Shown here one piece after another: positions 28,335-48,539 of a DNA stretch of 64,000 nt; position 1 is the stretch's first letter; every line of letters starts with the position of its first letter. This DNA comes from Halobacteriovoraceae bacterium. Lineage in GTDB: Bacteria; Bdellovibrionota; Bacteriovoracia; Bacteriovoracales; Bacteriovoracaceae. Location of the stretch: contig PASN01000019.1 in assembly GCA_002711995.1 (NCBI GenBank), forward strand, positions 186,001 to 250,000. Reading direction: 5' to 3'. The position numbers and the translations under genes were made by a program. The notes beneath the pieces were generated by a model. The model made no database searches. It was not told where the DNA came from and was given only the letters and a program-made list of their open reading frames with translations.

Positions 28335-29312
28335 ATGGAAATTAAAAGAATTGTTGGAATCGGTGTGGCGGTTTTTGCTTTCTCTGCATGCAATGAAGCT
28401 GTAGAGGAGCGTATTAACACCGTCTATGAAGAAGAGGCGAGAAAGAAAGAGACTTTTTCGGCAACTGACAAGTATGGGCCTTTAAAGGTTAAAGTAGGCG
28501 AGTTTTCTGGAGTAAGCTCAATCAAGCCTTGGTCAGCTTGGTGGTATCCCCTGAACGAAAAAACCATGTTTTACAAACCAAGAGGTGGCGCTTCACCTTT
28601 AGAAAAATACGACTATTACTCGGGAAAAATGTTTAATGTGTTTTCCGAGTCTGCGCTGTACGAAGAGAGGGAAGTATATCGTCCTAATGAAGTTGGATGG
28701 GCAGGCCTGTGTCACGCTTGGGCAATAGCGTCTGTACTTCACCCTGAACCAACTGAAGCTAAGACTGTTGGAGGTGTTAAGTGGTCTGTGGGAGATCAGA
28801 AGGCGCTTTTACTGAAAACGTATGAAAAGGCCGTTGGGATCTCAGACATTATGATAGGAGAGCGATTTAACGGGGATAGAAATGACGATTATGACGACAT
28901 TTACCCTGATCAATTTCACAAGCTTGCGCAGAATCACCTTGTAAAAAACAAGATGCCATTATTAATGGACTACGATCCGCGATTTCCTGTGTGGACCGTT
29001 CCTGTTTACAAGGTAAAGTTCATCATCGAAAGACTGAGTAATACCAGCGCAAAGGTGAAGGCATTTGTAACATTTGCTAGTCCACACGTTGACGACCACA
29101 ATTATGTAGGCACTAAAAGAGTTATCAAATCCTACGATTATATTCTCAAAGGTCAGTGGAATAATGGAACTTTGAATGTGACTGACGGGGAGTGGATTGA
29201 AGGCAGTAAGACGGACCACCCTGACTACCTTGTTTCTTTCCCTGACTCCATAGAGAGAGGAAGCCTTAACAAGGAAATTAATCCTGAGATCGTTGACTCT
29301 ATTCTTAAATAG
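28335..29312 (+). CDS. Secreted lipoprotein with transglutaminase-elicitor-like Cys-His motif
   Basis: A 325-residue lipoprotein (lipobox FSAC, Cys19). The notable motif is GWAGLCHAWAIASVLHPEP around Cys126-His127, which resembles the catalytic region of the Phytophthora/Vibrio transglutaminase-elicitor family (W-x-G-x-C-x-G/A-x-A...PEP). Other shared blocks with its neighbour are DDIYPDQFHKLAQNH, LLMDYDPRFPVWTVPVYK and the Tyr-rich C-terminal YDYILKGQWNNG. GGGAG precedes the ATG. Together with the next gene it forms a paralogous pair. If the family call holds it would cross-link proteins or polyamines outside the inner membrane; this is inference. Confidence 0.6.
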   Translation: MEIKRIVGIGVAVFAFSACNEAVEERINTVYEEEARKKETFSATDKYGPLKVKVGEFSGVSSIKPWSAWWYPLNEKTMFYKPRGGASPLEKYDYYSGKMFNVFSESALYEEREVYRPNEVGWAGLCHAWAIASVLHPEPTEAKTVGGVKWSVGDQKALLLKTYEKAVGISDIMIGERFNGDRNDDYDDIYPDQFHKLAQNHLVKNKMPLLMDYDPRFPVWTVPVYKVKFIIERLSNTSAKVKAFVTFASPHVDDHNYVGTKRVIKSYDYILKGQWNNGTLNVTDGEWIEGSKTDHPDYLVSFPDSIERGSLNKEINPEIVDSILK

Positions 29313-29323
29313 GAAGCGTTTGT

Positions 29324-30697
29324 ATGAAACACAGTTTTCTGATTATTTTGTTTATTATTATTGGGGATGTCCATGGTCAAGAGACCATGGACCTGGAGAG
29401 GTGGAAATCACCTCTCGCACCCAAAAAAGTCTCCCATAGGAACACCATTGTATTGGGGAACGGCCAATTTCACGATATGTGGGTTTCTATTGGGAGACCC
29501 AAAAGTGGTTACCGAAGCGAAGATCATTTTAGAAAACTATTGCCTGCATATAGTGGAATCGAAAAACTCCATAGCAATATCTTCTATTTCGATAACATTA
29601 AACTATTTGAAGGTGCCTCCAAAGAAAAATTTTGGAGTTACATAAATTCTCCCACTAGCAAGGGGGGGCTAGCCCAAAGACCTGGAATGGAGAATTCAAA
29701 AGAGAAGTGGCCACAAACCTTAAATCGGTTTAAAAGCACGCCTCCTTCATCGCTTTTAAAAAGTGGACGTTTTAGTGATATGTCAGCAGCCGAGAAATAT
29801 GATTTTCTCTTTGGAGAGAAGACCTACCTTTTTGATCACGAGGTGAACTATTCAAATTCTGTCTATAAAACATTCGGCAGCATTGCCTATTGGGCAGGAA
29901 TATGCCACGGAACAGCTCCTGCTAGTTTCATGTACCCGGAACCTCTAAGAAGCGTCCAGGTGAAGGCCTATGACGGTAGAAGCATCCCCTTTAGTGTGAA
30001 AGATATAAAAAGACTAGCAGCACATGCCTGGGCCGAAAATAACTACGATATATCTTTTATTGGAGGACGTTGCGATATCGATGAGCTGGGCTCTAGAAAA
30101 CCTGAATGCTTAGATACTAATCCGGCCACTCTTCACTTGGCATTGTTAAACTATATTGGTCTGCACGGTAAAACTCTAATTATGGATAACGCCTATGATT
30201 CAGATGTGTGGAATCGACCGATCATGGGATTTAGCTATAAATATGTGAACCCTAAGAACGGTTTGAGGTCAAGACTTCTAAAACATGCCCTGATTAAAAG
30301 GAGTGAGTACCCTGAAGATCCGAATAAGTGGAATCGCCGCATTGGGACTCATTACTTAGTTGGTGTTCATATGAAGGTAAAGCTTCTGTTTGGCGATGAA
30401 GAAGGAAGCGATTCTCGAGCAAATGGATACGAAATTCATTATAAATACGATTTAGAAATAGATAAGAAGGGTAGAATCGTAGGTGGAGAGTGGATTACTC
30501 AATATCATCCAGATTTTTTATGGATGGTGCATGAAGGAAATTCACCAAAGTCCAGTGAAGATTTGTCCATCAGTCAAAATTTATGGAGTGGAAAATCTCC
30601 ATTATCATCTAAGGTGAAAAGGCTAGGACAGCAAGCGGCCGAGAGAGGCCAAGTTTTGGAATATATTGTTAGAAGCCTGTTGGAACTATCAAAATAA
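29324..30697 (+). CDS. Second secreted Cys-His protein, transglutaminase-elicitor-like
   Basis: A 457-residue exported protein with a signal peptide (residues 1-18, ending VHG). The core repeats the upstream gene's pattern: YWAGICHGTAPASFMYPEP with Cys194-His195, then ..PATLHLALLNYIGLHGKTLIMDNAYDSDVWNRP and IHYKYDLEIDKKGRIVGGEW. The extra 65 residues are mostly N-terminal. It starts 11 bases after its paralogue, so the two are one operon. AGGA lies before the ATG. The conserved Cys-His and Trp-Asn segments suggest a papain/transglutaminase-like enzyme; the substrate is unknown. Confidence 0.6.
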   Translation: MKHSFLIILFIIIGDVHGQETMDLERWKSPLAPKKVSHRNTIVLGNGQFHDMWVSIGRPKSGYRSEDHFRKLLPAYSGIEKLHSNIFYFDNIKLFEGASKEKFWSYINSPTSKGGLAQRPGMENSKEKWPQTLNRFKSTPPSSLLKSGRFSDMSAAEKYDFLFGEKTYLFDHEVNYSNSVYKTFGSIAYWAGICHGTAPASFMYPEPLRSVQVKAYDGRSIPFSVKDIKRLAAHAWAENNYDISFIGGRCDIDELGSRKPECLDTNPATLHLALLNYIGLHGKTLIMDNAYDSDVWNRPIMGFSYKYVNPKNGLRSRLLKHALIKRSEYPEDPNKWNRRIGTHYLVGVHMKVKLLFGDEEGSDSRANGYEIHYKYDLEIDKKGRIVGGEWITQYHPDFLWMVHEGNSPKSSEDLSISQNLWSGKSPLSSKVKRLGQQAAERGQVLEYIVRSLLELSK

Positions 30698-40898: not shown

Positions 40899-41297
40899 TT
40901 GGACTCAAAATTCTCAATTGGTCCAATAAGGTTTGGGTTGGACTCTATAATAGGTCTTATTCCTGGAGTTGGGGACAGCGTCGGAGCTGCCCTTTCAAGC
41001 TACATAATCTTCAAGGCCTGGTCACTAAATGTGTCAGGCGCAACACTGGGGCGTATGGTCCTTAATACAGCCATTGATAGCATTGTTGGAGCGATTCCAA
41101 TCGTTGGGGACTTGTTTGATGTGGCATGGAAAGCGAACACAAAAAACTTGGCCCTTTTGGAAAAAGAGATGAGGTCGCCAAAAAAAGCTCGAAGGAAGTC
41201 CTATCTTTGGTTATTAATCGTTTTGATCTCGGTAGCTGGATTATTATATTTATGTATTTACCTGCCACTTTCGATTTTAGCAGACCACTGCTGTTAA
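40899..41297 (+). CDS. DUF4112 membrane protein with unclear start
   Basis: The product matches DUF4112: DSKFSIGPIRFGLDSIIGLIPGVGDSVGAAL and MVLNTAIDSIVGAIPIVGDLFDVAWKANTKNLALL. A C-terminal helix (LWLLIVLISVAGLLYLCIYLP) follows. The conserved frame is open upstream of TTG 40899 to 40839 and includes DVRFYSKLL, which belongs to the family's N-terminus, but there is no ATG, GTG or TTG there. ATA at 40851 preceded by GGTGGGTAGG could be a mutated ATG. TTG 40899 would lose about 16 residues of the domain. Function unknown. Confidence 0.7.
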   Translation: MDSKFSIGPIRFGLDSIIGLIPGVGDSVGAALSSYIIFKAWSLNVSGATLGRMVLNTAIDSIVGAIPIVGDLFDVAWKANTKNLALLEKEMRSPKKARRKSYLWLLIVLISVAGLLYLCIYLPLSILADHCC

Positions 41298-41746
41298 TGA
41301 TCCCTCTTTAAGAGCTTTCTAAGATCAGAGGGCAAAGAGGAAAGGACCTTGTCCGGAGAGTTTGCGCTCTTATCACTGTTCCAGTTTTCTACTTGTGCCC
41401 AAAAGATTTTTGGAAACTTGATGGAATCACTTACTCTGCCAGTATAGTTAAATATATGATTTTTAATCTGTCTCGCATTTAAAGACCTGTCAGGCCTGGC
41501 CAACTCTAAGGTTTCACACTCTCTTTTTAAACCTTCGGGTAGTAGCTGACGGAAAGGCCTGGATTTTTCTGAGGGAAGTAGCTGAGTAATGTCTTTAGTA
41601 ATCAACCTCACCAGTTTTTGACTCAAGTTCGTAGGCAGTTGCGCCTTGCGGGCAATACTCTTTATGAATGAGTGCGTCTCATCGTAAATTTTGTCATGAT
41701 GTGGAGCACTGTAGTGCAAAATTCCATGCTGTTCAAAGTTACCCAT
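41294..41746 (-). CDS. Hypothetical protein, possibly DUF2267-like
   Basis: A 150-residue soluble protein with helical patterns: YDETHSFIKSIARKAQLPTNLSQKLVRLITKDITQLLPSEKSRPFRQLLPEGLKR. This pattern of short helices, and LLP..LRKLL near the end, recall the DUF2267 family, but the match is weak. GGAGG lies just before the ATG. It is convergent with the DUF4112 gene and divergent from the ExbB-like gene. Function unknown. Confidence 0.5.
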   Translation of the reverse strand: MGNFEQHGILHYSAPHHDKIYDETHSFIKSIARKAQLPTNLSQKLVRLITKDITQLLPSEKSRPFRQLLPEGLKRECETLELARPDRSLNARQIKNHIFNYTGRVSDSIKFPKIFWAQVENWNSDKSANSPDKVLSSLPSDLRKLLKRDH

Positions 41747-41873: not shown

Positions 41874-42527
41874 TTGGATGCAAACATTGTACAGAGCTTA
41901 TTCAGTGTATTAACGGACAACATTTTCTTGATTATCTATGGATTTGCAGTTGTTGAAATCTATTTGGTTGGTTCAATATTTTTTATGCTTAAAGGGCATG
42001 AGTCCAAATTGCTAGATGTGGCCGACAATCTTTTGAAAGGTTTTTCAGACGCTCCTGATAGAGACTCGTCCCAAAGTGCTCATGAAAAAATACAAGCAGC
42101 TCTCCAGTTTATAAACACCAAGATCGCAAATGATAGAAGCTTTAGATATGCCTTCAGAAAAAATGCTCAAAAGGTTAATGAAAGACAATTTTACAACAGA
42201 ACTTATAAAATCGAGATGTTTACAAGTGTGATGTCCACACTGGTTCAAATCTTTCCCCTTTTGGGAATTCTTGGAACAATTTTGGCGATTGCCCAGACTG
42301 CTTTTCAGTCAGGAGCTCAAATTGATGTGACTTCCTTGTCGAGTGCCTTTGTTTTGGCCATGGACACAACTATCCTTGGAATAACCTTCTCAATCTTATT
42401 CATGGTTGTGGAGAGTGCATTTAGTCCGAAAATTGAAAGAGTCATTGTTGAGTCTGAAGAGTATCGAAATATCCTTTCAAATATATATTTAGACAACGAA
42501 AGCGCGCCATTAGAGCAGGCCCAATGA
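41874..42527 (+). CDS. MotA/TolQ/ExbB-type proton channel subunit
   Basis: A 217-residue membrane protein with three helices (about 15-38, 118-142 and 162-185). The block MFTSVMSTLVQIFPLLGILGTILAIAQTAFQ and SSAFVLAMDTTILGITFSILFMVVE matches the conserved part of ExbB/TolQ/MotA, which form ion-driven motors with ExbD/TolR/MotB partners. Length is typical of ExbB. It overlaps the ExbD-like gene by 4 bases. GAGG lies well upstream of the ATG. No TonB or TolA gene is near, so the output of this motor is not TonB-like by position. Confidence 0.8.
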   Translation: MDANIVQSLFSVLTDNIFLIIYGFAVVEIYLVGSIFFMLKGHESKLLDVADNLLKGFSDAPDRDSSQSAHEKIQAALQFINTKIANDRSFRYAFRKNAQKVNERQFYNRTYKIEMFTSVMSTLVQIFPLLGILGTILAIAQTAFQSGAQIDVTSLSSAFVLAMDTTILGITFSILFMVVESAFSPKIERVIVESEEYRNILSNIYLDNESAPLEQAQ

Positions 42528-43078
42528 AAAAAAAGTTAAAAAAGCCAGTAGTTCAATTAACATCTTTGCTTGACCTGCTTTTTGTCATGATATTTGTTTT
42601 GTTGTTGCAATCGAAGGCAACTCCAACAAAAGCTGATGCCACTCCAAAGCCTAGCCCAGCTCCTGCTCCAGTGGCAAAGGTTGAAAAAACAAAGCCAAAA
42701 CCAAGGCCGACTCCAGAGCCTGCAAAGCCTACAAAAATTTCAATTGGAGCGATCTTTCATTTTTATGCAACTGCAAAATCACCTAATGTTCCCACGGGTA
42801 TATATTCTATGCAGGGTACATACAACACGAAATCCGGTGATCTTAAACTAGGTGGAACAAACTGGATTAAGCGCCCACAACATTATGATATGGTCCCTCT
42901 GTCTGGTTCCATAGATGAAAAAACTGGAACATTCACCGGCAGAATTGAGTTTCAAGACTGTAAAGAATTTAACCTGTACAAAACCCAGAGCGACTCAGGT
43001 TCACCTGTTGCAGGCAAATGGGAAGGAACCTATACCTGCGGTCAAGGTGAGACAGGATTAACACTGACCTTGAGATAA
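42524..43078 (+). CDS. ExbD/TolR-like subunit with a new periplasmic domain
   Basis: A 184-residue protein with the motor's N-terminal helix QLTSLLDLLFVMIFVLLLQ; Asp17 stands where ExbD/TolR have their proton-carrying Asp. Then a Pro/Ala/Lys-rich linker (residues about 32-75) leads to about 110 residues of strand-rich domain (GAIFHFYATAKS, YSMQGTYNTKSGDLKLGGTNWIKRP, KWEGTYTCGQGETGLTLTL) with two Cys. The normal ExbD/TolR periplasmic fold and its C-terminal motif are missing. This domain looks like a lipocalin/DUF-type sandwich and may carry the output function. It is coupled to the ExbB-like gene (ATGA). Confidence 0.68.
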   Translation: MKKKLKKPVVQLTSLLDLLFVMIFVLLLQSKATPTKADATPKPSPAPAPVAKVEKTKPKPRPTPEPAKPTKISIGAIFHFYATAKSPNVPTGIYSMQGTYNTKSGDLKLGGTNWIKRPQHYDMVPLSGSIDEKTGTFTGRIEFQDCKEFNLYKTQSDSGSPVAGKWEGTYTCGQGETGLTLTLR

Positions 43079-47269: not shown

Positions 47270-47857
47270 ATGAAATTACTAAAAAGAAGCTTATTTCTTG
47301 GAACTTTTTTAGGGGCCATGGGGGCAGTCGCAGAATGTGATCTGGCCAAGACAGACTTAACTGATTCAACGTTTAAGAACGCTGTCATTGAGCAAGTTGG
47401 CGAGAGAAAGTGTTCAGTTCATTCGGAGTTTACGAAAATTTACTATGGTGGCCCAAGTTACCTTAAAGTTGAGAGCTGTTTTGGCGGTGAGGATGATGGA
47501 ACTAGGTATATTAAGGTCGTAGCAGACTCTCGAGGTATCTGTGTGTTTCCTACCCAGTTGAGTGGTGATTTTGCACGTTATAATTTCTGGTTTCAAGCCT
47601 ATGACTATAGAGGTAAGCGATTGTTCGACTATGATAAAACTAAAATATGTGGGAAAGACGGGGATGAAATGGTAGTTAAAGATATGCCAACTAATTTTTT
47701 GCTCGTAATGGACCCAGCAACGGTAGATGGCTTCTTAAAGTGCTTAGATCGAGAAACCAATGGCTACAATGAGTTAGGCACAGTTTACAATAACATAACG
47801 GGCTCTTGTAAGGAGGTTGAAGGCACATTCTATTCTAGACATGGCCTCAGCAGTTAA
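47270..47857 (+). CDS. Secreted cysteine-containing protein of unknown function
   Basis: A 195-residue exported protein. The signal peptide (residues 1-22, KLLKRSLFLGTFLGAMGAVA) is followed by CDLAKTDL. Seven Cys are spread over the mature part (KCSVH, SCFGG, GICVF, KICGK, KCLDR, SCKEV), suggesting disulfides outside the cytoplasm. No family recognised. AAGGGA precedes the ATG. The next gene starts around its stop codon. Confidence 0.6.
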   Translation: MKLLKRSLFLGTFLGAMGAVAECDLAKTDLTDSTFKNAVIEQVGERKCSVHSEFTKIYYGGPSYLKVESCFGGEDDGTRYIKVVADSRGICVFPTQLSGDFARYNFWFQAYDYRGKRLFDYDKTKICGKDGDEMVVKDMPTNFLLVMDPATVDGFLKCLDRETNGYNELGTVYNNITGSCKEVEGTFYSRHGLSS

Positions 47858-47861
47858 AGTA

Positions 47862-48539
47862 ATGTTTAGATTTAAGAAGTTAGACCTATATTGCGAAAGA
47901 CTTGATTCCTCCTTTTGGGCAGAACCCATTAATGCCTTCACTAATTTGTTTATATTTCTAGCGGGTGTTTATGGTCTTTCCGAGTCAAGGAAGTTGCCAA
48001 GTAAATCTGAAGTAAGACAGATAAAAATTTGTTCATATCTAGCTATGGCCACAGGGATTGGTAGTTTTTTATTTCACACCTTTGCAAATAGTCTTACGAT
48101 GTGGCTAGACATTCTTCCGATTACATTATTTCAAATTTTCTCTATAAACTTTTTTTTACAGTTTGTGCTACTCACTCCATTAGTGGCGCGTCTAATTTTT
48201 CTCACTCTATTTGTTGCCCTTTCACTTCATTTAAAATCTGAGGCATACGTTGAGTATTTCAATGGTTCATTAATGTATGCTCCAAGTCTCGTAACACTCT
48301 TTGTTCTAGGTGCCATAACTTGGCTTAAAAAAATGAAAGGTGTATCGATTTGTTTGTATGCTTCTGTTTTAATTTTCACAGTGTCAATTACGGCCCGATC
48401 ATATGACTTGGAGATTTGCGAACATTTTCCTTTAGGGACGCACTTCATTTGGCATAGCTTGAATGGTCTTCTAATTATCTTACTTTTAAAGGCCATGATC
48501 ATCCACACTAAGGCCGAGCTTAATTTTGCTAAAGATTAA
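47862..48539 (+). CDS. Ceramidase-like membrane hydrolase (alkaline ceramidase/CREST family)
   Basis: A 225-residue membrane protein with about seven helices. DLYCERLDSSFWAEPINAFTN at the N-terminus, SFLFHTFAN, MWLDILPITLFQI and GTHFIWHSLNGLL match the alkaline ceramidase/PAQR-like CREST superfamily. The zinc-binding set is complete (His in FHTF, Asp in WLD, and His-x-x-x-His in HFIWH). The family cleaves amide-linked lipids. The start is uncertain: ATG 47862, ATG 47841 (overlapping the previous gene) or TTG 47817 are possible. AAGGAGG at 47809-47815 could serve the earlier starts. Confidence 0.75.
   Translation: MFRFKKLDLYCERLDSSFWAEPINAFTNLFIFLAGVYGLSESRKLPSKSEVRQIKICSYLAMATGIGSFLFHTFANSLTMWLDILPITLFQIFSINFFLQFVLLTPLVARLIFLTLFVALSLHLKSEAYVEYFNGSLMYAPSLVTLFVLGAITWLKKMKGVSICLYASVLIFTVSITARSYDLEICEHFPLGTHFIWHSLNGLLIILLLKAMIIHTKAELNFAKD

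Follow-up and report, generated by a model that had tools for sequence, protein, structure and literature searches.

Two adjacent genes in the window (the whole stretch of DNA analysed, 64,000 nucleotides) raise the question of what a stator-type motor might do when the partner of its MotA/ExbB/TolQ-family subunit carries an ExbD-like helix joined to a periplasmic domain of another kind. The original prediction described an ExbB/ExbD-like motor with a new output domain. A motor with a swapped, non-ExbD domain on a Pro-rich arm is what the analysis points to, but the fold of that domain is not in itself new. Both open reading frames lie where they had been placed and the pair is real:

41874-42527, + strand: gene A, a MotA/ExbB/TolQ-family subunit of 217 amino acids with a TTG start (Pfam MotA_ExbB, 1.6e-11; clade of 20 homologues)
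42524-43078, + strand: gene B, 184 amino acids, with an ExbD-like helix, a Pro-rich arm and a permuted beta-barrel
42524-42527, + strand: ATGA overlap in the sequence, shared by the stop codon of gene A and the start codon of gene B

The ATGA overlap makes translational coupling of the two genes likely. The TTG start of gene A is supported because its relatives start at the same position with GTG or ATG. Scans of the locus for promoters and terminators gave nothing informative. A gene at 41294-41746, divergent from the two-gene unit, is weakly DUF2267-like (0.0032, below the cut-off); such a gene also adjoins a partial unit in one genome of the same genus (L011) and nowhere else.

Gene A scores 44.5 bits against Pfam MotA_ExbB, where the cut-off is 22.9, and is thus a member of the family. 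The 20 homologues form a single clade (support 100/100) apart from the Agl-like paralogues and E. coli ExbB, on a long stem that leaves its exact sister group unsure. The residues that line the pore are found at two places:

42276-42278, + strand: gene A Thr135, a pore-lining Thr at the position of Thr148 in an alignment with E. coli ExbB
42363-42371, + strand: gene A Asp164-Thr165-Thr166, in the third helix

Thr135, Thr165 and Thr166 are invariant in 20 of 20 homologues, and Thr166 appears to be the equivalent of ExbB Thr181, as judged by eye from the alignment. Asp164 (42363-42365) is an extra acidic residue beside the pore threonines, present in 19 of the 20 homologues with Asn in the remaining one. 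Asn also stands at the like place in Agl-like paralogues from loci with one A and two B subunits (contigs C5 and C6).

The partner subunit had been predicted to keep the motor helix and Asp17, and both are there, followed by an arm and a head:

42557-42610, + strand: motor (transpore) helix of gene B, residues 12-29, near-invariant (AlphaFold2 helix 13-28)
42572-42574, + strand: gene B Asp17 (GAC), ion-binding Asp equivalent to ExbD Asp25 (E. coli ExbD and TolR sequences compared)
42617-42733, + strand: flexible Pro/Lys/Ala-rich arm of gene B, residues 32-70 (low pLDDT at 30-56)
42734-43072, + strand: predicted periplasmic eight-stranded beta-barrel of gene B, residues 71-183 (AlphaFold2; Foldseek)

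Asp17 is invariant in all 20 homologues and the mean entropy of the helix is 0.26 bits (19 sequences). The arm varies both in sequence and in length, from 23 to 42 residues across the homologues, and is mostly Pro-rich. Similarity to Pfam ExbD is confined to residues 7-37 of gene B, at 12.7 bits against a cut-off of 25.4 (E 0.14), and gene B is absent from the six above-cut-off ExbD matches in its own genome.

The AlphaFold2 model of full gene B, built on an alignment of only three sequences, shows a helix over residues 13-28, a disordered stretch from 30 to 56 and, over 71-183, eight strands whose pLDDT is mostly 80-92. This agrees with the proposal that the ExbD/TolR fold has been replaced by a Pro-rich arm and a strand-rich domain. 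When the head domain was modelled alone, the best model had a mean pLDDT of 81 and a pTM of 0.73, and two of the five models were poor (pLDDT about 50-55). The top Foldseek matches of the head were NHBA, YwiB, TbpB, LolA and nitrobindin, followed at lower rank by lipocalin, HphA and fHbp; the probability reached 1.00 (NHBA/TbpB), the TM values were about 0.5-0.6 and no match was below E 0.001. No ExbD, TolR or OmpA fold was found in the gene B model or among the Foldseek matches shown, and residues 75-184, predicted and searched as a structure, are not an ordinary ExbD domain. An ordinary ExbD with divergent sequence is ruled out by the head fold together with the ExbD profile score. MotB was also rejected as an identity, as gene B has no Pfam OmpA-like match and its model is a barrel. 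Searches of Pfam and NCBIfam gave no match to the head, those of PHROGs and PADLOC left it without a name, and a sequence search of solved structures rendered nothing with the native-order profile and only weak unrelated matches with the rotated one.

Invariant and variable residues alternate along the strands of the head (for example A76, F78, F80; Y94, M96; W166, G168, Y170, C172), as a barrel whose interior is conserved would be expected to show. If the barrel is taken as a meander, with the sides assigned on that assumption and not read from coordinates, conservation is higher in the loops distal to the tether than in the tether-side loops (entropy 1.18 versus 2.13 bits, permutation p 0.0015). 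The interior of the head is conserved to the same degree as the rim.

The suggestion that the strand-rich domain is of unknown type, a new fold, was not supported. It is predicted to be a small eight-stranded barrel and, from the comparison of sequences, is a circular permutant of an existing but unnamed extracytoplasmic domain of bacteria. The head of one homologue (L008) aligned in two separate segments with the C-terminal domain of a Ser/Thr kinase from Streptomyces; the native-order head of the gene B described here gave nothing convincing among plasmids. The unpermuted barrel is present in the Streptomyces kinase WP_251091413, in Skermanella WP_202685410 and in alphaproteobacterial secreted proteins, with 37% (Streptomyces) and 28% (Skermanella) identity to the rotated head. 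The rotated head gave tblastn values of 6e-13 for Streptomyces and 1e-4 for Skermanella, and the native order had no useful match. In a scan of rotations with a profile built on 19 sequences, the best single-domain score for Streptomyces rose from 51.9 to 88.4 bits when the last 20-odd residues were moved to the front, and that for Skermanella from 23.2 to 48.4 bits, with shuffled controls at or below about 7 and the peak at a cut directly before AGKWEG. The parts of the domain concerned are:

42992-43012, + strand: junction loop, residues 157-163, a variable loop at the best rotation point that joins both ends of the unpermuted domain
43013-43072, + strand: displaced hairpin GxWxGxYxCxQGxTGLxLTx, first in the unpermuted homologues and last in gene B
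42959-42961, + strand: Cys146, candidate disulfide partner of Cys172, invariant in 19 of 19 sequences
43037-43039, + strand: Cys172, candidate disulfide partner of Cys146; the same two Cys places occur in the Streptomyces and Skermanella domains

Every complete gene B terminates right behind the hairpin GxWxGxYxCxQGxTGL. In pairwise BLAST, the 19 head domains aligned as swapped pieces, or through the body only, in their native order, and over their full length in a single match once rotated. A profile in the unpermuted order, run against 369 Bdellovibrionota genomes, matched all complete copies as two pieces in swapped order and found no unpermuted copy of the barrel. The two forms have the Cys pair, W[IV]xxP and G.[WY].G.Y.C in common. 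The permuted form is probably the derived one because the unpermuted form occurs in both Actinomycetota and Alphaproteobacteria. A disulfide between Cys146 and Cys172 is likely from their conservation; the two residues are on neighbouring strands, with which the unpermuted domain begins and ends, so that the bond would staple the old chain ends. Gene B's head offers a clear-cut natural case of circular permutation that goes with a new context, and the barrel domain, having no Pfam or NCBIfam match, would lend itself to definition as a family. Large secreted-looking proteins on Paracoccus and Ensifer plasmids (L059, L060) start with a divergent unpermuted barrel, and a caspase-domain gene lies close to the barrel-bearing protein on the Ensifer plasmid.

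The same genome has six A-family proteins, five besides gene A, and six ExbD domains above the cut-off. Its other motor loci include a tolQ-tolR-tolA/tonB-like-tolB set, MotA-MotB and an ExbB-ExbD pair next to a protein read as FecR-like; gene A/gene B is the only pair in which the B protein is without an ExbD or MotB domain. TonB_C was not found near the pair and all TonB_C matches in the genome are on other contigs. As the Tol, ExbBD, Agl-like and MotAB loci are also elsewhere, the statement that TonB, TolA and flagellar genes are absent from the neighbourhood is correct. Two loci with one A and two B subunits, Agl-like by layout, adjoin TPR or forkhead-associated-like proteins (contigs C5 and C6; L122 and L120). 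Elsewhere in the window there are two adjacent genes of the transglutaminase-elicitor family, possibly encoding secreted enzymes (28335-30697; TGase_elicitor 1.3e-20 and 7.8e-26), and a membrane protein of the Ceramidase family (47817-48539; 2.1e-09, above the cut-off).

The Bacteriovoracaceae are relatives of predatory bacteria. A search with the barrel profile found the head in 30 of 369 Bdellovibrionota genomes, 28 from one family and two from another. Relatives of both proteins were found by protein search, and the pair also occurs in the named metagenome assemblies of a Halobacteriovorax sp. and of an uncultured Bacteriovoracaceae bacterium; it is thus shared with relatives. In all 17 loci with wide flanks A and B are adjacent, overlapping or nearly so, and no other gene family stands beside the pair in more than four of them. 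The identities of A and B co-vary across 19 genomes (r 0.73). The observation goes beyond chance because both proteins are conserved and adjacent wherever both are readable. The two-gene unit is accessory and not core because its presence is patchy within one genus, where it occurs in two near-complete genomes and is missing from two others; in one genome without the unit the outer flanks are still there, about 10 kb apart. The distribution beyond Bdellovibrionota is drawn only from records of plasmids and phages and from a single pattern scan, and no relative of the unit was found on viral contigs.

We favour the reading, with about an even chance of being right, that the pair is an autonomous stator-type motor in which the barrels of the helix dimer, carried on their arms, exert ion-driven force on an envelope partner. 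Membership of the A subunit in its family, the helix with its Asp, the barrel prediction, the permutation and the conservation of the pair are well supported by computation; we infer the 5:2 assembly, the ion coupling, the direction of force and the partner. Force on an envelope partner is suggested because the motor residues are intact, the arm is present and the distal rim is conserved. Gene A would most likely form a membrane pentamer with three helices, in which Thr135 and Thr165/166 line the ion path, and two gene B helices would most likely occupy the pore, where Asp17 would bind the ion. The flow of ions would then cause relative turning of the pentamer and the helix dimer. Each gene B chain would carry an arm of 23-42 residues and a barrel, probably stapled by the disulfide, in place of the ExbD/TolR domain, and the conserved rim, facing away from the tether, would probably bind the envelope partner, for which an outer-membrane protein, a lipoprotein, a glycan or a wall-bound protein are candidates. 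One polypeptide might thereby serve as ExbD (the axle) plus TonB/TolA (reach and grip). The genome names no target, since no linked partner gene is conserved in the 17 loci. We propose more tentatively, as a possibility, that the unit is a self-contained trans-envelope machine whose pentamer directly rotates or pulls the dimer of permuted binding barrels against a partner in the outer membrane or wall; the permutation would have re-placed the chain ends of the barrel upon its fusion with the motor helix.

A ligand-gated conductance or sensor is a serious rival, if a rather unlikely one, since a kinase receptor has this same barrel as its outer part. The barrel would bind a small molecule or a signal from the prey or envelope and open or close the A/B pore, and the output would be a changed ion flux or act through the cytoplasmic parts of gene A, not through force on the envelope. 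It is in line with this that a receptor-like Ser/Thr kinase carries the unpermuted barrel at its extracytoplasmic end, that the fold relatives (lipocalins, HphA, fHbp, TbpB) are binding domains, and that interior and rim of the barrel are equally conserved, though conserved interior residues may be mere core packing of a small barrel. The long arm, however, looks more like an element for reach, and the motor residues are all retained. Force and signalling should be easy to tell apart by experiment, given a unit of two genes with a conserved motor Asp.

The possibility that gene B joins or exchanges into the Tol, ExbBD or Agl-like motors and tunes them, with gene A secondary, appears improbable. 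There are motors enough for it in this genome, which has five A-family proteins besides gene A, six of the ExbD type and Agl-like sets that pair one A with two different B subunits, but A and B are always adjacent, overlapping or nearly so, the gene A clade is distinct and the identities of the two proteins co-vary. A peptidoglycan-anchored subunit of the ExbD/TolR/MotB type with a divergent wall-binding domain has a similarly small chance: the position of the head in the protein and the role as axle partner would suit it and the barrel could bind peptidoglycan, but neither the model nor the Foldseek matches shown hold an ExbD, TolR or OmpA fold, and the head is without a Pfam or NCBIfam match. 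A Zorya-type anti-phage motor is highly improbable, for although gene A weakly matches ZorA (E 0.00033, through the shared A fold) and the unit is present or missing within one genus, there is no ZorB match, the neighbours include no widely common gene family and the unit is not on viral contigs.

Compared with known systems, the autonomous motor that we favour shares with ExbB-ExbD and TolQ-TolR the A family, the helix with an invariant Asp, the pore threonines and the adjacent genes, but it lacks their periplasmic fold and has no TonB/TolA gene in the unit. Gene B resembles TonB and TolA in its Pro-rich disordered arm and globular C-terminal domain, whereas its anchor helix is of the ExbD type with Asp and its head is not TonB_C. 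The barrel is homologous in sequence over the whole domain, after rotation, to that of Streptomyces and Skermanella, where hairpin A-B comes first and not last as in gene B; it may share the fold of a small eight-stranded barrel with TbpB, NHBA, fHbp and lipocalin, as Foldseek suggests (E above 0.001), without detectable sequence relationship to them. The A/B stator architecture is that of MotA-MotB, AglRQS, GldLM and ZorAB, which are ion-driven and vary in the periplasmic domains of B; MotB, for instance, carries an OmpA-like wall-binding domain. We know of none of these reported with the barrel found here. MotAB, ExbBD and GldLM are motors of 5:2 stoichiometry that are driven by ions and conserve an Asp in the helix of the B subunit (PMC9389320), and non-flagellar A/B complexes are structurally diverse (PMC12505986). 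A close parallel in layout is TPH-vWA, in which an ExbD-type helix bears a von Willebrand A domain and direct rotation in a TolQ-like pentamer is predicted (PMC12204202, Mol Biol Evol 2025). There, as here, the neighbour of a TolQ-type gene encodes an Asp-bearing helix of the ExbD type joined to a periplasmic domain other than that of ExbD, with no separate exbD/tolR; TPH-vWA is usually a heterologous pair, while there is one B gene here, and the head is a permuted eight-stranded barrel instead of vWA. The barrel head joins a short list of outputs on stator-type ion motors, and the pair supports the recent proposal that such motors drive the axle protein directly, without TonB or TolA.
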